Shown: piece by piece, positions 16,963 through 27,336 of the stretch | Layout: each line of letters starts with the position of its first letter | Position numbering within the stretch: the first letter of the stretch is position 1 | Assembly (NCBI GenBank): GCA_028278405.1 | Contig: JANQEK010000042.1 | Span: 1-64,000 of the forward strand | DNA from: Nitrospinaceae bacterium | GTDB taxonomy: Bacteria > Nitrospinota > Nitrospinia > Nitrospinales > Nitrospinaceae | DNA length: 64,000 nucleotides | Direction of reading: 5' to 3' | Program-made: the position numbers and the translations under genes | Notes under the pieces: model-generated | What the model was told of the DNA's origin: nothing | Seen by the model: the letters and a program-made list of their open reading frames with translations, nothing else | The model's database searches: none

Positions 16963-17130
16963 TCAATTCTCAGAGCACCTCTAATTGGCCGACCTTCGAG
17001 GCGTAAGCGCATTTAGCCAAAAGCCATTGTATTTCAATGCCTTACATTCCTTTTTGATTTCTGTGGCAATCTGGAAATGAGCTGTTACATTAATAAGATA
17101 GACTCAATTCACATCCTCAGGACGAAAGCT

Positions 17131-17769
17131 ATGCAAAAATCCAAAGCTATTTTTATGGTCGGCTGTCTTTTGCTTTTAACAGGAACTCTGGGCGGTTGCT
17201 CCAAAAAAAATGCAGACAAAGCTTTTCTGGATCTTCATCCCAGAATACTGGTGCACGAATCCGATTTAGGTGGCGGCAAAAACCTGAGGGTATCTGTAGT
17301 GGATAAAAGAAGGCGCAATATTCTGTTAAAAAAAGATTCCGAACGGAAAATTCGATCCGGCCGGGCTCTGGTTGTCAAGGACTACCATCCTTCACTCAGA
17401 CTGGACAACAATTTTCAGGAGACAGCGACGGAAGCTTTCCAAAAACAGGGCTATGATACAGAGGGCAAAGGAACCGGCAGCTTTCGCGAATTGACTATTT
17501 ACATTACCAAGCTGGACCTTCGGCTACGGAAGGACAAAACCCGTACAGGCACGCTACCCTCTATCCAGGCACGGCTTCGTTCCAAAATAAAAGTATCCGC
17601 CAAGAACCGGGGCATGGCTTATGGAAACGAGTACGAGTTTTTCATCAAAAACTCTTATCCAACGATCCCCGAAAAAATTGAAACCGAAAAAATTATAAAT
17701 TACGGTCTCACTCAGCTTTTACATCAAGTACTGGAAGATCCCAAACTCACCCAATTCCTGACCAGCTAA
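17131..17769 (+). CDS. YajG-like lipoprotein, copy 1
   Basis: A 212-residue predicted lipoprotein. Signal peptide MQKSKAIFMVGCLLLLTG ends in the lipobox TLGGC. The mature part has the organisation of YajG-family lipoproteins: ILVHESDLGGGKNLRVSVVD, then a YDTEGKG segment, then a C-terminal helix ending near TQFL. The start at 17131 follows AGGA (17119-17122); the 18 upstream codons are dropped. The next gene is a diverged paralogue with the same plan (RVSNVGNGEKLVVRVND; final segment DDPELIQFLL versus EDPKLTQFLT). Function unknown; outer membrane location likely. Confidence 0.75.
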   Translation: MQKSKAIFMVGCLLLLTGTLGGCSKKNADKAFLDLHPRILVHESDLGGGKNLRVSVVDKRRRNILLKKDSERKIRSGRALVVKDYHPSLRLDNNFQETATEAFQKQGYDTEGKGTGSFRELTIYITKLDLRLRKDKTRTGTLPSIQARLRSKIKVSAKNRGMAYGNEYEFFIKNSYPTIPEKIETEKIINYGLTQLLHQVLEDPKLTQFLTS

Positions 17770-17961: not shown

Positions 17962-18642
17962 ATGACAAGAATATCCCCTGTTGTCAAAACCCCGGGTAAT
18001 ACCCGACTTACAGGTTTTTCTTATCCGCTAATGTGGGTATTTCTCGGAATACTCATTTCTCTTTCAGCACTTGGATGCACTCATGATCACAAAGTCAATT
18101 TGAATCCGGAAATCTTCGTCCGCGTCAGCAATGTTGGAAATGGAGAAAAACTGGTGGTTCGGGTCAATGACATTCGTTCGCAAAAAGCCATCTCCAAAAA
18201 AGAATCCGATATCAAAGTGATCTCGGACCGCTCAGTTAACACCGTCAGTATTTATGCATCTTCCGACGTTCGCGATACCGTTTCGGAAAAGGTTATGGAA
18301 GGCTTTGAACGGATGGGCTTTCACGCATCCAAGTATGGCAAGGCTTCCAGCAAAAGAGTCACCGTGGAAATATCCAAACTAAACTTGAATTATCGGAGAG
18401 GGGGGGTCGGTATCAAAATTCCGGAAGTTCACGCCCGGATGGAAACAATACTCCGGGTGCAAGCCTACCATGACAACAAATCCTTCAAAAAAACTTACAG
18501 CTCTCGATTGAGGAAATCTCACCGCATACTGACTGGAAAGTTCAAAAACGAGCGCCTGATAAACAACAGTCTTTCCATGGCTATACAGAAAATATTCGAT
18601 GATCCCGAACTGATCCAATTCCTTTTACCGGCCAATCCCTGA
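17962..18642 (+). CDS. YajG-like lipoprotein, copy 2
   Basis: A 226-residue predicted lipoprotein with a long hydrophobic signal segment (about residues 20-38) and lipobox LSALGC. The mature domain is paralogous to the preceding gene: the same EIFVRVSNVGNGEKL opening, a middle GFHASKYG turn and the C-terminal DDPELIQFLLP end. A gap of 192 nt without a terminator separates the copies. Twin lipoproteins of this type suggest a duplicated envelope component; no partner could be identified. Confidence 0.72.
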   Translation: MTRISPVVKTPGNTRLTGFSYPLMWVFLGILISLSALGCTHDHKVNLNPEIFVRVSNVGNGEKLVVRVNDIRSQKAISKKESDIKVISDRSVNTVSIYASSDVRDTVSEKVMEGFERMGFHASKYGKASSKRVTVEISKLNLNYRRGGVGIKIPEVHARMETILRVQAYHDNKSFKKTYSSRLRKSHRILTGKFKNERLINNSLSMAIQKIFDDPELIQFLLPANP

Positions 18643-18941
18643 TCTGTCTTCAAACTGTTTTCTAGACAAAGGAAGTCGACTCCAAATACAAATTTTTTGG
18701 CGGCAAAGGCTCTAAGCATCCAAAAGTACTGAAATAAAGCCATTTAAATCAGATGCTTATTGCCAACCCCAGGGCATCGTGATAATCTTAAAATACAAAT
18801 AATGAATTGTTTCGCAATTATTTTTGGTTAGAAAATTGTCCCCAAGCTTCTGATAGACTCCTGTTACGCCCTGGACGTTTGGCTCACGTGAGAAAAGAGT
18901 TTTAGAACTATTTGCCTGCAGAATTTTAGAGGAAAAAACTC

Positions 18942-20273
18942 GTGAAGTATTCTCAACTGACCTTTGAAAATCCCAATTGCAAGCCTGCCCCTCCCCACCT
19001 CCGTAGGGATCAGATTATTGCTAAGCTGAAAGAAAATTTCGATTTCGAAAACGCCCATCTCCGCTCATCATCCAACAATGAGGGTGAAGGCGTCCTGTCA
19101 AAATGCTACGGGTATGAGGCCCCGGACCAGGCCAAGGACCTCGGCATTTATCCTTATTTTCGTGAAATTGAGGCCATGAATGGCGCCCATGTCACTATTG
19201 GAGGACGCGATGTTATCACGGTATCCTCCAACAACTACCTCGGCCTGACCAACGATCCCCGAGTTGTCGAAGCGGGAAAAACCGCTTTGGAGAAGTTCGG
19301 TACCGGTTGCACCGGCAGCCGGTTTCTCAACGGGACGCTGAGTCTTCACAAAAAACTTGAGAAAGACATTTCCCACTTCCTGAAACGGGATGACACCATC
19401 GTGATGTCCACCGGTTACCAGGCCAATCAGGGGACCATATCCTGCCTCCTGGGCAGGAAAGACATTGCATTCTCCGACCGGGAGAACCATGCCAGCATCT
19501 ATGAAGGGTGCGCGGTGGCTGCCGGCAAAACGGTACGTTTTCGTCACAACGACATGGATCATCTGGAGTACTGCCTGAAGAAATACAGAGGAGTGGAAGG
19601 CAAACTAATCATAACAGACAGTGTCTTCAGCATGAGCGGCGACATAGCGAACCTCCCGGGAATCGTCAAACTGGCGCGGGATTACAAGGCCAGCATTCTA
19701 GTGGACGAAGCCCACGGTATGGGTGTCATGGGTGAAGCGGGCCGGGGCGTCACAAGCTATTACAATCTGGAGAAAGAAATCGATATCTATGTCGGCACAT
19801 TTTCCAAAAGCATGGGATCTATTGGCGGATTCGTTTCAGCACACCCTAAAATTACCGAATACATCCGGCATAAGGCTTCGGCGTTTATCTTTACGGCGGC
19901 ATTACCTCCGGCCTCGGTTGCGGGAGTGAACACCGCTTTAAATATCATGATTCAGGAACCGGAGCGGATACGGCAGCTTCATAACAACGCCGCCTACATG
20001 AAAAAAGGGTTGTTCGACATGGGATTTCAAATCAACAACAACCCGATACCGATCATTCCCATCAAGATCGGAGACGAAGCCTTGACACTTTATTTTAATC
20101 AACTCCTGTTTGACAACGGCGTTTTTGCGGGCGTTGCCGTGTCACCCGTGGTTCCGGCCTTCCATGCAATGATACGAACCAGCTATACTTCGGCACACAC
20201 TCAGGAGGACTTGGACCATGTTCTCCACACTTTCAAAATAATCGGAACAGATTTGGGCATTATCTCTCAATAA
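18942..20273 (+). CDS. Serine palmitoyltransferase-like alpha-oxoamine synthase
   Basis: PLP enzyme of the KBL/BioF/SPT family. GIYPYFREIE followed by SSNNYLGLTNDP is the SPT-type opening. The cofactor-stacking His is in SDRENHASIYEG and the PLP-contact Asp in VDEAHGMGVMG. The Schiff-base lysine is K289 in TFSKSMGSIGGF. The about 40 extra N-terminal residues also match bacterial SPT rather than BioF. It starts at GTG 18942 behind a GAGGA motif. It heads a compact five-gene operon whose other members fit ceramide formation, head-group addition and export, so serine plus acyl thioester to 3-ketosphinganine is the likely reaction. BioF activity is a less likely alternative, since bioD and bioA lie elsewhere. 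Confidence 0.85.
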   Translation: MKYSQLTFENPNCKPAPPHLRRDQIIAKLKENFDFENAHLRSSSNNEGEGVLSKCYGYEAPDQAKDLGIYPYFREIEAMNGAHVTIGGRDVITVSSNNYLGLTNDPRVVEAGKTALEKFGTGCTGSRFLNGTLSLHKKLEKDISHFLKRDDTIVMSTGYQANQGTISCLLGRKDIAFSDRENHASIYEGCAVAAGKTVRFRHNDMDHLEYCLKKYRGVEGKLIITDSVFSMSGDIANLPGIVKLARDYKASILVDEAHGMGVMGEAGRGVTSYYNLEKEIDIYVGTFSKSMGSIGGFVSAHPKITEYIRHKASAFIFTAALPPASVAGVNTALNIMIQEPERIRQLHNNAAYMKKGLFDMGFQINNNPIPIIPIKIGDEALTLYFNQLLFDNGVFAGVAVSPVVPAFHAMIRTSYTSAHTQEDLDHVLHTFKIIGTDLGIISQ

Positions 20274-21394
20274 TGGCCATCGTTTTAAAAAGGGTCGAAT
20301 CCTCCAAAGACACCGACGCTTTTATCCTTTTCCCACACAAACTCTACACCGGTAACACCCCTTGGGTAGCACCCCTGAACCACGAAAGAAAAAAATTTCT
20401 TTCACCCGAAACAAATCCTTTTTTCGATCATGCTGAAGCCCAGTATTTTCTCGCTCTATCTAATGAAGGGAAAGTTCTAGGACGTATCGCCGCCATTGTC
20501 GACCACGACCACAATCGATTTCATAAGGAAAATACCGGCTTCTTCGGGATGTTTGAATGTATTGACAATCTCGAAGTATCCACCCTGCTATTAAACGCGG
20601 CAAGGCAATGGTGCGAAAACAGAAAAATGGACCGGATACAGGGTCCTCTAAACTTGTCCACCAATCACGAATGCGGTCTCTTGGTGGAAAATTTTGACGA
20701 TCCCCCTGTATTGGGGATGCCCTACAATCCACCTTACTATTCAAATCTGTTCCTCCATTGGGGTCTGAAAAAACTCAAAGACCTGATCTCTTTTGACCTT
20801 CGGATCACCCAGGTTCCGGAGTATCTGGACAGGGCGGTTTCATTGATTCGAAAAAGGAATCGATTCAGCATACGGTGCCTGCAAATGGATCGGTTCGATG
20901 AGGAACTGGATTTGATCTGGGAAATCTATAATTCCGCCTGGGAGACCAACTGGGGCTTCGTCCCGATGAGCCATCGCGAATTCGTCTATGCGGCCCAGGA
21001 TATGAAGCGTGTGGTGGACCCCCGATTATGCTACATCGCCGATGTGAACGGCGAACCTGCCGGGTTTTCCCTGACCCTGTCGGATATCAATCAGGCACTC
21101 AAACCCATGAAGGGAAAACTGTTTCCTTTCGGATGGCTGAAGTTTATCCTAGGAAAGAGAGAAATTAATCGCTCTCGTGTCATCACCCTGGGAGTCAAAA
21201 AGAAATACCAACGATTGGGAATCGACGCCTTTTTCTACCACGCCACTTACAAACAATTGATAGAAATGAATATCCATCGGGTAGACATGTCGTGGGTTCT
21301 CGAAGACAACCAGGCGATAATCGGCCCCATTGAAAAAATCGGCGGAGTTCCCTACAAACGACATCGGATTTATGAACGAAGCTTCTCCCATTAA
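20273..21394 (+). CDS. YghO/GNAT-like acyltransferase, candidate bacterial ceramide synthase
   Basis: A 373-residue protein with the YghO-type pattern: YTGNTPWVAPL and NPFFDHAEAQYFLA near the N terminus, RIQGPLNLSTNHECGLLV near residue 123, and MPYNPPYYSNLF. A GNAT-like C-terminal fold follows (LGVKKKYQRLGIDAFFYHAT, near residue 300, resembling the acyl-CoA loop). This family contains the bacterial ceramide synthase described in Caulobacter. The start overlaps the SPT stop by one base (TAATGG), indicating translational coupling. Assignment as ceramide synthase rests on family and operon context; substrate is not proven. Confidence 0.72.
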   Translation: MAIVLKRVESSKDTDAFILFPHKLYTGNTPWVAPLNHERKKFLSPETNPFFDHAEAQYFLALSNEGKVLGRIAAIVDHDHNRFHKENTGFFGMFECIDNLEVSTLLLNAARQWCENRKMDRIQGPLNLSTNHECGLLVENFDDPPVLGMPYNPPYYSNLFLHWGLKKLKDLISFDLRITQVPEYLDRAVSLIRKRNRFSIRCLQMDRFDEELDLIWEIYNSAWETNWGFVPMSHREFVYAAQDMKRVVDPRLCYIADVNGEPAGFSLTLSDINQALKPMKGKLFPFGWLKFILGKREINRSRVITLGVKKKYQRLGIDAFFYHATYKQLIEMNIHRVDMSWVLEDNQAIIGPIEKIGGVPYKRHRIYERSFSH

Positions 21395-22379
21395 CGGATC
21401 ATCGACACTGGTCACCGGCGCCACCGGGTTTATCGGGAGTCACCTGGTAGACTCTCTACTGGAACGTGGATGCAAAGTGCATTGCGTGGTCCGCAAAACC
21501 AGCAATCTGCAATGGCTCGACACTTCCCGCGTCATTGTACATACAGGAGATCTCCACCAGCCTGAGACCTACCAAGAATCTCTTGCCGAAGTGGATTATG
21601 TATTTCATTGTGCCGGCATCACACGTGCCAACAACAGGCACGAATATCTCCACCAGAATGCACGTGCTTGTGTTCCTTTTTACCGGAGCTGTGTCGAGCA
21701 TGGCAAACAGATCAAGGGTGTGGTGCACCTCAGCAGCCTTGCAGCGGTCGGCCCCACACCCCCCCAACAGAAAGTTGATGAAGAGACTCCCTGCCATCCT
21801 TTGACTTATTATGGCAAATCCAAGTTAACCGGCGAGGAGATTGCCCTGGGGTACGCTTCTGAGCTTCCGATGGTTATTCTGCGTCCGCCGGTTGTGTACG
21901 GAGAACGGGATATAAATTTCTTTACCTACCTGAGAACCGTTAGTTGGAGAATGGCCATCAAAATCGGAACCACGCCTCGAACTCTTTCCCTGATCCATGT
22001 CAAGGATCTGGTCGATGCCATGATACGGGCCGCAGCGGCACCCGATCCGAATCAAAATGTTTTGTTTATTACTGACGGTAAAATCTATTCCTGGGAGGAT
22101 GTGGCCAACGCCGCAATGGACGCACTGGAAGTTCGGGCACAAACCATCATCATTCCGGTTTGGTTGATGGGCTTTGCAGCCATGGTATCCGAATTTCTGT
22201 CAAAAATGAGAAACCGGACCCCGCTGATCGACCGGCAACGGATGATTGATCTCCGCCAAAGTTCATGGACCGCTTCCTCGGAGCGGTTTTTCGGTCATTA
22301 CTCATTCCAGCCCCGGATCGACCTCATCCAGGGTTTAAAGCAAACATGCGCCTGGTACAAACGACAGGGGTGGCTCTAA
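21372..22379 (+). CDS. NAD(P)-dependent epimerase/reductase, candidate ceramide reductase
   Basis: Extended SDR protein of 335 residues. Rossmann motif GATGFIGSHL near residue 16, active-site YYGKSK (Tyr147, Lys151), and a C-terminal substrate domain ending with RIDLIQGLKQTCAWYKRQGW. It overlaps the acyltransferase gene by 23 nt and is followed by the next gene after 1 nt. In bacteria that make sphingolipids an epimerase-like reductase (CerR) reduces the 3-keto group; the position here between the acyltransferase and a lipid head-group enzyme fits this. A sugar epimerase role is possible but no other sugar-nucleotide genes are nearby. Confidence 0.72.
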   Translation: MNEASPINGSSTLVTGATGFIGSHLVDSLLERGCKVHCVVRKTSNLQWLDTSRVIVHTGDLHQPETYQESLAEVDYVFHCAGITRANNRHEYLHQNARACVPFYRSCVEHGKQIKGVVHLSSLAAVGPTPPQQKVDEETPCHPLTYYGKSKLTGEEIALGYASELPMVILRPPVVYGERDINFFTYLRTVSWRMAIKIGTTPRTLSLIHVKDLVDAMIRAAAAPDPNQNVLFITDGKIYSWEDVANAAMDALEVRAQTIIIPVWLMGFAAMVSEFLSKMRNRTPLIDRQRMIDLRQSSWTASSERFFGHYSFQPRIDLIQGLKQTCAWYKRQGWL

Positions 22380-22380
22380 A

Positions 22381-23241
22381 ATGTCTTTGAATGCGCAGAT
22401 GAGCCAAATTCGGAAAAATCTATCAGAACCGGTAGTCCGCTTTATCCAGGAACCGGCCGCGCGGCCCATCGTCTATGCATTTAAGGAAACGCCCGTCACC
22501 CCCAACCAAGTGACGGGCCTTTCCGCCCTGCTGAGTATTGGCGCAGCCTATTTTTTTAGCCTGGGAGATGCCCGTTCCATGATTCAGGGGGGGATTATTT
22601 TTGAAATATCCCGTATTCTGGATAGTGTGGACGGGGAACTCGCGCGGGCCAAAGGGATGACCAGCGATTGGGGGCGCATCGTGGACGGCATCGGCGATTA
22701 CGTCTCCAGCATCGCTATTTTGATTGGATTGATGATTGGGCTTCCCAATTCTCGTGGAGAACTGCTCATTCTGGCTTTTCTCATTTTCTTAAGAGGGCTG
22801 ACTTATGACTACTTCAAAGAAAACATGATGAGCCGGATAAATCACGGTTATGACGGGTCCCAGCGCGATATCCAAAAAACTTATGAAAGACTATCCAAAT
22901 CCCATTCTTTGATGCTCAAAATCTATTTTTATTATCTACAGTTTCAGCAGTTGCTGTTTAAAGGACATTGGACAACTTTGAAAAGTTATTCTTCCAAACA
23001 GACTGCGGCCCACCCGGTCTGGCCGGAGGAACAAAGACTTCGCTACTACCAGAACAAACAACCTTTGATCTTTCTTTGGAAATGGAACGGGCCAGATTTG
23101 ATGTTTTTTCTCATCATCCTGTTTTCCTGTTTCTCCATTCTGGAAAATTGCTTGCCGTGGCTCTCAGCGATTATGGCTATACAGTTGATCGTTACTTTCA
23201 TTTTTCACCATTATTTGATTCGCAATGAAAAATCTTCTTAG
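22381..23241 (+). CDS. CDP-alcohol phosphatidyltransferase family membrane protein
   Basis: Integral membrane enzyme that transfers a phospho-alcohol between CDP-activated and free alcohol. The complete family signature is present: Asp81 and Asp84-Gly in DSVDGELARAKG, then GRIVDGIGD with the two catalytic Asp residues. Several hydrophobic segments surround it. Two substrates are plausible: a CDP-activated head group transferred to ceramide, or a phosphatidylinositol-type reaction. A soluble-looking insert (about 165-230, charged and aromatic) distinguishes it from PgsA/PssA. It starts 1 nt after the epimerase stop and overlaps the exporter gene by 17 nt. Confidence 0.85.
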   Translation: MSLNAQMSQIRKNLSEPVVRFIQEPAARPIVYAFKETPVTPNQVTGLSALLSIGAAYFFSLGDARSMIQGGIIFEISRILDSVDGELARAKGMTSDWGRIVDGIGDYVSSIAILIGLMIGLPNSRGELLILAFLIFLRGLTYDYFKENMMSRINHGYDGSQRDIQKTYERLSKSHSLMLKIYFYYLQFQQLLFKGHWTTLKSYSSKQTAAHPVWPEEQRLRYYQNKQPLIFLWKWNGPDLMFFLIILFSCFSILENCLPWLSAIMAIQLIVTFIFHHYLIRNEKSS

Positions 23242-25636
23242 GTGGTGCTACCTTAATATAACCGCAAAAAGCCCCTGGCTGATCGTGGCATGCGGCGCCC
23301 TGATTACACTCGGAGCCCTTTGGGTCGCCTCGGGATTGACCTATAGCCCTCGACTGGACAACCTCCTCCCTCAGGATCTCGAACTGGTTCAGGAGTTCAA
23401 CGAGGTGGTCGATAAAACCGGAGGAACCGGTCCTCTGGTGGTCGTTTTGGAAGGCTTGACACCCAAGCAAGCCCCGGAAGTAATTGATGGGCTGACCGGA
23501 AGATTCCAACGGGTTCCTGATGTTTATTTTGTCGATTCCCGGATACCGGTTCGGTTTCTAAAAAACCGCCAATTGTTGTTCGCAACGCAAAGCGATTTAC
23601 AGGAACTCGATAAAGTGATTGAGGGGGCCATCGAACACGCCCGCAGCTCGTTAACCGGCTTTTTTGGAGCTTCTCAGGACTCCTACAATCCTTCCGAACT
23701 CCAGGGCCTCTCGGATCATTATAGAATTTTTGAAAATATCCAACCCTTCTATAGAGGCAAAAGCGGAAACCGATACTATATCTTCATACAATCCCGCGGC
23801 ACCGCATCCAATACAGGCTTCACACGAAATTTCGTTCAATCGATTCAGCATCAGATCGACCAGTTCCGTTTGAACCATCATTACCCGAATTTAAAAATTC
23901 AGTTTTCCGGAGGCATGATCACCCGTCTCGAGGAAAACCATGTGGTTCAAACCGATTTAAAGAACTCGGTGATTGTCGCCGTGGTACTGGTCACCATCAT
24001 ATTGGCTCTATACAACCGGTCGATCCTTTCGATCATCCTGCTCTTCATACCCCTGATCACCTCCCTGAGCCTGACTTTCGCGCTCACTCGCCTCTTGATC
24101 GGCCATGTCAATATTGTTTCCGGGTTTTTGGTCGCGATACTGACAGGGCTGGGAATCAATTATGGGATTCATTTATACATTCGATTCAAGCAGGAATTAC
24201 GCAAGGGTCAGACCATCCCTGCTGCTGCGGAGTTGGTTGCCACCCAGGTAGGGAGGTCCGGGGTCATTGCCATGGCCACAACCATCAGCGTTTTTTCCCT
24301 GTTGATGCTTTCTGACTTCCGGGGATTTTCCGAATTTGGCGCCATTGCAGCTATCGGAATCATGTGCTCCTTCACCAGCTACTTTTTCCTGTTGCCTGCC
24401 CTTGTTCTTTGCGCCGACAGAATTCATGGATTGAGAAAACCCCGGCCCCGAATGTTCTCTCTGAGAATTTCCGCCATTTATTCCAAAACTCCCATCTTTC
24501 TGGTGGCCATGTTTCTCATTCTCCTGGCTTCCAGTCTGTTTCTCATCCCTGACATTCAGTTTGAGCATGATTTTCGAAAGTTACGCGGAGAATCACCCGC
24601 GGCTGACTTTGAAGCGGAAACAACGGAAGATTTTGGATTCGCTTTTTCACCTACTGTCATCATGACGCCCAACAAAGGAGATCTTTTCAGAATTCATCAG
24701 GCTCTCCAATCCATCAAGGAAAAATACGGTGACGACTCCACCATAGGAATCCATCACTCGTTGGACCTTTTCAGCCTCAAACAATATGAAAGCAAAAAGC
24801 CAATTCTGAAACGTATCCGCGATAAATTGATCAAAGACAGGGACATCATAGAAATATCCATGGGAACACATCGCTACCGCAAGCTCAAACGGCTGGTAGA
24901 AGCCAAGCCCTTCGACGCAAAAAACACCCCTCCAAATTTATTGAAGCGCTTCATGGCAAAAGACCAGTACCTACTCCTGATCTTTTCTCCTGCCGATAAG
25001 AATTTTTTCGATGTAAGAAACATCTATCAACTTGAGAAGGAAATCAAAGAGCTTAAAACAACCCTCGCCAAGGAAAATATCCGTTTTGCTGTGCTGAACG
25101 AAAATCTCCTGGCAGCCGCAATTCTGGATTGGGTGAAGCAGAAAGGCCCTCAAACCCTGGCTTGGGCCATGGGGCTGGTGTTTTTGATCCTGCTCTGGGA
25201 TTTCCGGAGTCCCCGGCTGGCCTTCAAAACCTTCCTTCCCCTGTTTACAGGTCTGGCTCTGACAGGAGCACTTATGTCCGTCTTCCATATCAAATTGAAT
25301 TTCATCAATATGGTGATGCTTCCCTCTATTGTCGGTATAATGATCGATCATTGCGTCTATCTGGGGCATCATATTTTGGACTATTCACGGCATGAAACGA
25401 CAAAGTCCGTCAAGGAAACCGGAAGCGCCATTATTCTATCTGCTCTGGCGAGCCTGGCAGGATACGCCAGCCTCAACAGCGCGCATCATGCCGGTGTGCG
25501 GTCCATTGCTCACGTGGTGGAGGTGGGGATTATCGTCTGCACCGCATGTGCATTGTTCATGCTCCCTGTTTTGTTTCAAATGGGTGCCCACAAGTCTCCT
25601 TCATACCGGGCGCCTCAACCGGACCAGAAGGATTAG
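23225..25636 (+). CDS. MMPL/RND-family lipid transporter
   Basis: An 803-residue RND superfamily protein with two repeats of the SSD/patched-like membrane domain. The N-terminal membrane helix (about 15-35) precedes a large periplasmic loop. TM clusters follow at about 240-400 and 640-800, each with a glycine/acidic core (LTGLGINYGIHLYIRF; SIVGIMIDHCVYLGHH). MMPL and HpnN-type proteins move lipids from inner to outer membrane. As last gene of the SPT operon it is the obvious candidate exporter for the lipid made by the upstream genes. The 17-nt overlap with the preceding gene implies coupling. Confidence 0.85.
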   Translation: MKNLLRWCYLNITAKSPWLIVACGALITLGALWVASGLTYSPRLDNLLPQDLELVQEFNEVVDKTGGTGPLVVVLEGLTPKQAPEVIDGLTGRFQRVPDVYFVDSRIPVRFLKNRQLLFATQSDLQELDKVIEGAIEHARSSLTGFFGASQDSYNPSELQGLSDHYRIFENIQPFYRGKSGNRYYIFIQSRGTASNTGFTRNFVQSIQHQIDQFRLNHHYPNLKIQFSGGMITRLEENHVVQTDLKNSVIVAVVLVTIILALYNRSILSIILLFIPLITSLSLTFALTRLLIGHVNIVSGFLVAILTGLGINYGIHLYIRFKQELRKGQTIPAAAELVATQVGRSGVIAMATTISVFSLLMLSDFRGFSEFGAIAAIGIMCSFTSYFFLLPALVLCADRIHGLRKPRPRMFSLRISAIYSKTPIFLVAMFLILLASSLFLIPDIQFEHDFRKLRGESPAADFEAETTEDFGFAFSPTVIMTPNKGDLFRIHQALQSIKEKYGDDSTIGIHHSLDLFSLKQYESKKPILKRIRDKLIKDRDIIEISMGTHRYRKLKRLVEAKPFDAKNTPPNLLKRFMAKDQYLLLIFSPADKNFFDVRNIYQLEKEIKELKTTLAKENIRFAVLNENLLAAAILDWVKQKGPQTLAWAMGLVFLILLWDFRSPRLAFKTFLPLFTGLALTGALMSVFHIKLNFINMVMLPSIVGIMIDHCVYLGHHILDYSRHETTKSVKETGSAIILSALASLAGYASLNSAHHAGVRSIAHVVEVGIIVCTACALFMLPVLFQMGAHKSPSYRAPQPDQKD

Positions 25637-25683: not shown

Positions 25684-27336
25684 ATGAATGATTCGACACC
25701 CTTTAAAGGAAAACCCATCTCCAACATTGCTTCCCGGTTAGGGCTCAAGGAAGAAGATTGGATCCCCTACGGAACGACTAAAGCAAAGGTTCACCTCGAC
25801 GTTCTAAAAAAATATCCGTCTCGCGGCAAACTCATTCTGGTTTCCGCTATCACTCCCACACCGGCGGGTGAGGGTAAAACCACCACGACGATCGGATTGG
25901 GGCAGGCGCTGGCGCATCAAGATCAATCGGTCAGCATCGCCTTGCGCGAACCCTCGCTCGGACCCTGCCTGGGCATGAAAGGCGGCGCCACCGGCGGGGG
26001 ACTGAGCCAGGTGCATCCTGCGGAGGAAATTAATCTGCACTTTACGGGTGATTTCCACGCCATCACCTCCGCCAACAATCTGCTGGCCGCTCTTCTTGAT
26101 AATCGGATTTACCGGGAAGAAGCCGTGGCCATCGACCCGCGCCGAATCACTTGGAAACGGGTCGTGGACATGAACGATCGCGCCTTGCGAAATATCATCA
26201 TCGGTTTGGGTGGAGTCCTGCAGGGAATACCGCGTGAATCAGGATTCGATATCACTGCCGCGTCCGAAATCATGGCCATCCTCTGTCTGGCCAAAGACTA
26301 CGACGATCTCAAAACCCGCCTAGGTCGTATCCTCGTGGCCTTCACCTACAACGGGGAACCGGTCACCGCTGACTCGCTCAACGCCACCGGGGCGTTGGCT
26401 GCCCTATTGAAAGACGCGCTTATGCCGAACCTCGTCCAGACCACCGAAGGCGTTCCGGCATTCATCCACGGCGGACCGTTCGCCAACATTGCTCACGGAT
26501 GCAACTCGGTGATCGCCACCAAAATGGCTCTGGGTCTGACTGATTGGGTCATCACCGAAGCCGGATTTGGATTCGACCTCGGAGCGGAAAAGTTTTTCGA
26601 CATCAAATGTCAAAGCGCAGGGCTCGACACCGCCGCCGTCGTGCTCGTAGCCACATGCCGGGCACTCAAAATGCACGGAGGAGTCGCCAAAAACCAACTC
26701 ACCGAAAAAAACCTGGAAGCCTTACAAAAGGGCTTAGCCAACCTCGACAAACACGTCGAGAATATCGACAAGTTCTGCGAACCACCGGTGGTATGTCTTA
26801 ACCGATTTGCGACCGATCATGATGAAGAAATCGAACTGATTCGCAAGCACTGCGTAAATACTTTAAACGTGCCCTTCGCCGTCAGCAATCATTTTGAAGA
26901 AGGAGGAAAAGGAGGAGTCGAACTGGCGCAGGCGGTAATCCAACATTCCGAGAAAACATCCAGTCCCTTTTGCCCGCTTTACGACTGGAAAGAGGACGTC
27001 AAAACCAAAATCTGGAAAGTCGCGAACGGTATGTATGGTGCGGAAAATATCGTGTACACCAAAAAGGCGGAACGCGACCTGAAATCCATTAATCAGCTTG
27101 GGTATGACAAGCTTCCGGTATGTATCGCCAAAACACCGCAATCGCTGTCCGACGACCCCAAACTTATTGGCCGGCCTACGGGATTCACCGTGACCGTACG
27201 GGAAATTATCATATCGGCGGGCGCCGGATTTCTTGTTCCCATTACCGGTGACATCATGCGCATGCCCGGTCTTCCCAAGACTCCGCAAGCGGAGCACATT
27301 GACGTAATCGACGGCAATATCACCGGCGTAAAATAA
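25684..27336 (+). CDS. fhs: Formate--tetrahydrofolate ligase
   Basis: ATP-dependent formation of 10-formyl-THF from formate, feeding one-carbon metabolism. The 550 residues include the nucleotide motif TPTPAGEGKTTTTIGLGQAL near residue 59. REPSLGPCLGMKGGATGGG (near 100) and the FTGDFHAITSANNLL segment follow. Length and all conserved blocks match the bacterial monofunctional enzyme. It begins 47 nt after the exporter gene. It converges with a PTPS gene that may itself belong to folate synthesis. Confidence 0.97.
   Translation: MNDSTPFKGKPISNIASRLGLKEEDWIPYGTTKAKVHLDVLKKYPSRGKLILVSAITPTPAGEGKTTTTIGLGQALAHQDQSVSIALREPSLGPCLGMKGGATGGGLSQVHPAEEINLHFTGDFHAITSANNLLAALLDNRIYREEAVAIDPRRITWKRVVDMNDRALRNIIIGLGGVLQGIPRESGFDITAASEIMAILCLAKDYDDLKTRLGRILVAFTYNGEPVTADSLNATGALAALLKDALMPNLVQTTEGVPAFIHGGPFANIAHGCNSVIATKMALGLTDWVITEAGFGFDLGAEKFFDIKCQSAGLDTAAVVLVATCRALKMHGGVAKNQLTEKNLEALQKGLANLDKHVENIDKFCEPPVVCLNRFATDHDEEIELIRKHCVNTLNVPFAVSNHFEEGGKGGVELAQAVIQHSEKTSSPFCPLYDWKEDVKTKIWKVANGMYGAENIVYTKKAERDLKSINQLGYDKLPVCIAKTPQSLSDDPKLIGRPTGFTVTVREIIISAGAGFLVPITGDIMRMPGLPKTPQAEHIDVIDGNITGVK

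Follow-up and report, generated by a model that had tools for sequence, protein, structure and literature searches.

A five-gene block in Nitrospinota with a conserved, probable ceramide-synthesis core and a phylum-specific tail

Nitrospina have been described as the most abundant marine nitrite oxidisers (PMC5516240), and our literature search found no report on Nitrospina sphingolipids. Spt-like enzymes are spread over 38 phyla (PMC11334938), so that their presence in one more phylum would be unsurprising. The question raised by the locus described here is not only whether a Nitrospinaceae bacterium is equipped to make ceramides, but what becomes of them, since the genes for the putative core pathway are followed by two that have the look of a head-group transferase and a lipid exporter. 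The window, i.e. the whole stretch of 64 000 nt that was analysed (positions 1 to 64 000 of contig JANQEK010000042.1), belongs to a 3.16 Mb assembly of 47 contigs from the phylum Nitrospinota.

Five ORFs, overlapping or 1 nt apart, can be read on the plus strand between positions 18942 and 25636 (Table 1). The spt/cerS junction is a TAATG with a 1-nt overlap; cerS and cerR overlap by 23 nt, a 1-nt gap separates cerR from the CDP-alcohol phosphotransferase (CDP-AP) gene, and the latter overlaps the MMPL gene by 17 nt. The Pfam domains are, from gene 1 to gene 5, Aminotran_1_2, Acetyltransf_1, Epimerase, CDP-OH_P_transf and MMPL. A previous sequence-only reading had described five packed same-strand genes of these families, with no gene for an acyl carrier protein (ACP) or acyl-ACP synthetase among them; coordinates, frames and Pfam domains agree with that description, and the lack of both genes is correct for the window. 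The next gene on the same strand, encoding a formate-tetrahydrofolate ligase, starts at 25684, 47 nt past the MMPL gene; it was left out of the operon because this neighbour is not retained outside the genus of the window. Upstream lie tandem Lipoprotein_16 (YajG-like) genes (17077-17769 and 17962-18642), of which the genus retains one or both and its sister genus one. A promoter/terminator scan gave no plus-strand promoter, its promoter count being at chance level.

Table 1. Features of the putative ceramide operon (positions in the window)
Feature	Position	Strand	Length	Remarks
RBS-like AGAGGA	18928..18933	+		Ahead of the spt GTG start; read directly, role inferred
spt (gene 1)	18942..20273	+	443 aa	SPT-type alpha-oxoamine synthase; GTG start
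cerS candidate (gene 2)	20273..21394	+	373 aa	YghO-family tandem-GNAT N-acyltransferase
cerR candidate (gene 3)	21372..22379	+	335 aa	Epimerase-type SDR reductase
CDP-AP (gene 4)	22381..23241	+	286 aa	CDP-alcohol phosphotransferase
MMPL (gene 5)	23225..25636	+	803 aa	MMPL/RND lipid transporter (role inferred), partly HpnN-like

Among solved structures, the closest to the gene 1 product is the SPT of Sphingobacterium multivorum (347 bits), and BioF reaches about 195 bits or less. The GIYPYFREIE motif and K289, both pointed out beforehand, are present, and K289 corresponds in the alignment to the PLP lysine (K244) in the S. multivorum enzyme. When the sites described for that enzyme in PMC10196870 were mapped on gene 1, the residues were the same (N97, Y99, G125, S126, H183, S230, D255, A257, H258, T286 and K289). 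The protein also carries, with the PLP lysine, the GTFSKS motif termed 'SPT-characteristic' (PMC10196870). KBLs differ at these sites (S-V for G-S, S for A, and GKA), as do BioFs (GKA, GKG or SKA, with T replacing A319). In a maximum-likelihood tree sampling SPTs of known producers, KBL, BioF, ALAS and 11 Nitrospinota sequences, the latter formed one clade within the SPT group (support 99/93); with better sampled outgroups the placement was the same (100/99), KBL and BioF falling outside. Grouping of gene 1 with BioF or KBL had been named as one result that would overturn the sphingolipid interpretation. It was not seen in the trees; in AU tests union with KBL was rejected (P = 0.0007) and union with BioF, whose branches are very long, was not (P = 0.07). 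None of the NCBIfam SPT equivalog cut-offs was reached (best NF047600, 452 of 640 bits), but these models, Bacteroidetes or proteobacterial, are lineage-specific rather than definitional, and gene 1 was therefore filed as a member of the SPT clade and not as that equivalog. On these grounds gene 1 is an SPT-type enzyme, with predicted activity on serine and a long-chain acyl thioester. The Nitrospinota SPTs fall outside the long Rhodobacteria SPT branch, whose members rely on AcpR (PMC9386255). This position fits the missing ACP and acyl-ACP synthetase genes, and acyl-CoA would then be the probable substrate.

Gene 2 shares 34-36% identity, across 98-99% of its length, with E. coli YghO and with the cerS product of a Sphingomonas, a genus known for sphingolipids; these orthologues served for comparison in place of the Caulobacter proteins themselves. 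yghO (ECD_02850) and CC_1154, the N-acyltransferase required for dihydroceramide in Caulobacter, are listed as the same gene (PMC9386255). The predicted fold of the gene 2 product (pLDDT 91) has tandem GNATs as its best structure matches. Gene 2 is thus placed in the YghO/bCerS family, and N-acylation of a long-chain base is predicted as its function. Two to three tandem YghO/bCerS-like genes with no adjacent spt occur at three Cloacimonadota loci (L131, L137 and L156).

Gene 3 encodes an extended SDR with a Rossmann motif (GATGFIGSHL) and a YxxxK motif (YYGKSK). It gives weak matches to NDUFA9-type 39-kDa subunits, and CerR has been called NDUFA9-like (PMC11087976). In a tree it clusters with the spt-linked reductases found in other phyla and with the CerR proteins of E. 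coli, Sphingomonas and Roseomonas, with modest support (80/91). No obvious signal peptide was seen by eye in its N-terminus (MNEASPINGSSTLVTGATG); Caulobacter CerR has a periplasmic location. The best functional hint comes from two Nitrospinota genera (g11 and g16) in which cerS, CDP-AP and MMPL are gone from the locus and spt and cerR are still adjacent (71-74% and 50-53% identity). A distant cerS paralogue (34-42%) is found in these genera, whose spt locus lacks cerS (L063-L068), and in L046; it adjoins a large polyketide synthase gene in L065 (Pfam-confirmed) and L066.

The distribution of the genes was then analysed among 61 Nitrospinota-order genomes: spt is present in 45 (24 of the 28 good ones) and a gene 2 match in 47. 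In all 27 complete loci read from other Nitrospinota genomes, with protein identities of 36-90%, the order and strand of spt, cerS, cerR and CDP-AP are intact; the grouping is therefore not due to chance. Conservation of the order of all five genes, proposed as a check by the sequence-only reading, thus holds for the first four, and MMPL directly follows CDP-AP in 13 of the 27 loci, being upstream of spt in 3 and absent from the examined stretch in the rest. Of 55 cerS loci from outside Nitrospinota, 40 show an alpha-oxoamine synthase gene as a neighbour of cerS, in nearly all cases immediately upstream; these loci span about ten phyla, often with cerR as the third gene. No orthologue of the window CDP-AP was found within 10 kb of any of the 55. 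In one Nitrospinota branch (L042, L044, L056 and L061) the gene immediately before spt belongs to the fatty-acid desaturase family, and its product might desaturate or hydroxylate the long-chain base or the acyl chain; Sphingomonas has a similar gene in the vicinity of cerS. A Roseomonas marmotae plasmid record (L037) holds a sphingolipid cluster with spt, ACP, CDP-AP, a lipid kinase, cytidylyltransferases and two LptF/LptG-type permeases.

Genes 4 and 5 are where the interpretation is less firm. The CDP-AP signature D1xxD2GxxAR...GxxxD3xxxD4 is complete in the window protein (residues 81-106: D81, D84, G85, A88, R89, G98, D102 and D106). Structure comparison shows a CDP-AP fold (TM-scores of about 0.4), although the match does not give the substrate. 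The fourth Asp of this family is the likely catalytic base, and its replacement by Asn nearly abolishes the activity of a PIP synthase (PMC4634129, PMC6506517). At this position (D106, codon 22696-22698) Asp is found in the genus of the window only (10 rows); the other 42 of the 52 rows, which comprise all other Nitrospinota orthologues examined and include some duplicates between collections, have Gly. In the gene tree, the root of which is unsure, a single clean division separates the two forms. Invariant residues of the CDP-AP include D143 and K146. Since Asp is kept in a single genus, the case for a head-group step can be made in the host organism, but it does not simply carry over to the rest of the phylum. 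As to the kind of head group, a Bacteroides phosphoinositol route and a Caulobacter kinase-first route have been described (PMC12275187). No inositol-phosphate synthase (MIPS) was found in the host genome, and no ceramide kinase of the DAGK family (CpgB), the sole weak match being an NAD kinase, which argues against both: phosphoinositol-ceramide as in Bacteroides is unlikely, and the ceramide-kinase (CPG) route was rejected. Direct transfer from a CDP-activated alcohol to ceramide is the head-group route that remains. From operon membership and family, gene 4 is somewhat more probably than otherwise the enzyme that adds the head group. On contig C16 (1-2800; L190, 123-2772), a PEP mutase/NTP-transferase fusion of 585 aa is followed by a CDP-AP, a layout suggestive of phosphonate activation on the way to a phosphonolipid or phosphonoglycan; that it provides the donor for the operon CDP-AP is speculation.

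The MMPL protein scores 233 bits against the HpnN family (TIGR03480), a partial match. A role as hopanoid transporter was rejected, as the cut-off of 752 bits is not reached and the host genome encodes a separate, near full-length HpnN-like protein (C39:7373-9589). With this transporter and a squalene-hopene cyclase gene (C27:19623-21476) both encoded, the organism probably also makes hopanoids. For export of the operon's lipid by MMPL, suggested by operon membership and family, we consider the chances evenly balanced. In Myxococcota an MMPL protein encoded near spt is 27-29% identical to that of the window.

The strongest competing explanation accepts that the first three genes lead to ceramide and holds that CDP-AP and MMPL are merely co-transcribed, acting on an ordinary phospholipid or some other lipid of the envelope. 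We regard it as a real but minority possibility: genera g11 and g16 retain spt and cerR without the other two genes, about half of the Nitrospinota loci lack MMPL or have it elsewhere, most CDP-AP orthologues have lost the fourth Asp and four further CDP-APs are encoded in the host genome, whereas CDP-AP directly follows cerR in every complete locus with cerS and is near none of the non-Nitrospinota ones, and the genome's hopanoids have the HpnN-like protein on C39 at their disposal. It is rather improbable that the synthase takes another amino acid (Ala or Gly, leading to 1-deoxyceramides, or cysteate, leading to a sulfonolipid), so that the final lipid would be no classical ceramide. Sequence does not reveal with certainty which amino acid Spt chooses, Ala and Gly are also accepted by SPT at low efficiency (PMC10196870), and 1-deoxy- and sulfono-1-deoxyceramides are among the sphingolipids of the Black Sea that were found together with bacteria carrying Spt-like enzymes (PMC11334938); but the serine-contacting residues (N97, G125, S126, H183 and S230) are those of S. 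multivorum SPT, the match to cysteate C-fatty acyltransferase (213 bits) is far below that to SPT, and a 1-deoxy product would leave no C1-OH for CDP-AP. That gene 1 is BioF or KBL, the nearest other families, and the block unrelated to sphingolipids is very improbable in spite of bioD and bioA lying in the same window, since the trees and active-site residues oppose it and neither role is vacant, KBL being encoded beside a Tdh-like dehydrogenase and BioF at another site of the same genome; a role in biotin synthesis was rejected likewise.

We therefore return to the reading of the block as a ceramide operon, which, judged from sequence, we hold with considerable confidence, ceramide synthesis being likely. 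Spt would condense L-serine with a long-chain acyl-CoA from the general acyl supply into 3-keto-sphinganine, the YghO/bCerS-type GNAT would N-acylate the long-chain base and the CerR-type SDR, acting either ahead of that acylation or following it, would reduce the 3-keto group to give dihydroceramide. CDP-AP would then, most likely, place a phospho-head group from a CDP-activated alcohol on the C1-OH of ceramide, and MMPL would carry the resulting lipid in the direction of the outer membrane. The first three steps are based on homology to characterised systems and the last two on operon membership and family. The sequence-only reading had the organism make and export a phospho-ceramide. Its ceramide backbone is borne out by the SPT clade, the YghO/CC_1154-family GNAT and the gene order, but its phospho-head group and export are weakened by the Gly at the fourth position in most orthologues, the lack of a ceramide kinase and an inositol-phosphate synthase, an MMPL that is HpnN-like without being HpnN, and a facultative linkage. 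A kinase-free Nitrospinota route, in which a phylum-specific CDP-AP, mostly lacking the fourth Asp, acts directly on ceramide and a dedicated HpnN-like MMPL exports the product, can be put forward only tentatively; to our knowledge, neither activity is known from any characterised sphingolipid system of bacteria.

Should nearly all members of the Nitrospina group have a ceramide operon, ceramides would become a membrane constituent of the group that can be tested for, and possibly a biomarker. With the one-operon layout, stepwise expression could easily show whether acylation or reduction comes first, a point in dispute. The operon also supplies candidates for two steps, head-group attachment and export, and the mechanism of the CDP-AP family can be probed with a member that lacks the presumed catalytic base.

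Compared with known systems, the locus shares SPT, an epimerase-type CerR and a YghO-type acyltransferase with Caulobacter and other Rhodobacteria (spt, acpR, cerR, aasR and cerS; CC_1162-1165 and CC_1154; PMC9386255, PMC11324152), but it lacks AcpR, AasR, the LptF/LptG copies and the ceramide kinase, has CDP-AP and MMPL instead, and carries cerS inside the spt operon, between spt and cerR. The statement that cerS always sits in a different operon (PMC11324152) is contradicted by this layout. The yghO cluster of E. coli BL21-type strains (ECD_02850-02854; L034) has the same three core families but differs in having an ACP and an acyl-AMP ligase, in its divergent yghO and in the absence of CDP-AP and MMPL. 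S. multivorum SPT (PDB 8guh/3a2b) has an active site identical to that of gene 1, whereas the enzymes from Nitrospinota branch as a deep clade of their own and have about 45 extra N-terminal residues. The same spt-cerS(-cerR) adjacency, without an orthologue of the window CDP-AP within 10 kb, is seen in Acidobacteriota, Verrucomicrobiota, Gemmatimonadota, Zixibacteria and Myxococcota; at one Verrucomicrobiota locus (L126) an ORF judged by eye to be lipid/sphingosine-kinase-like lies ahead of spt. With the CDP-AP family (AF2299, AfDIPPS and PIP synthases) the window protein has the fold and the full signature in common, its orthologues outside the genus differing by Gly in place of the fourth Asp. 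The homology of the operon MMPL to the HpnN hopanoid transporter is partial and far under the family cut-off. Thus, the core ceramide pathway is known, and what is new is its arrangement in one operon with CDP-AP and MMPL, with no ACP system and no kinase; the novelty lies in the tail specific to the phylum and in the loss of the aspartate.
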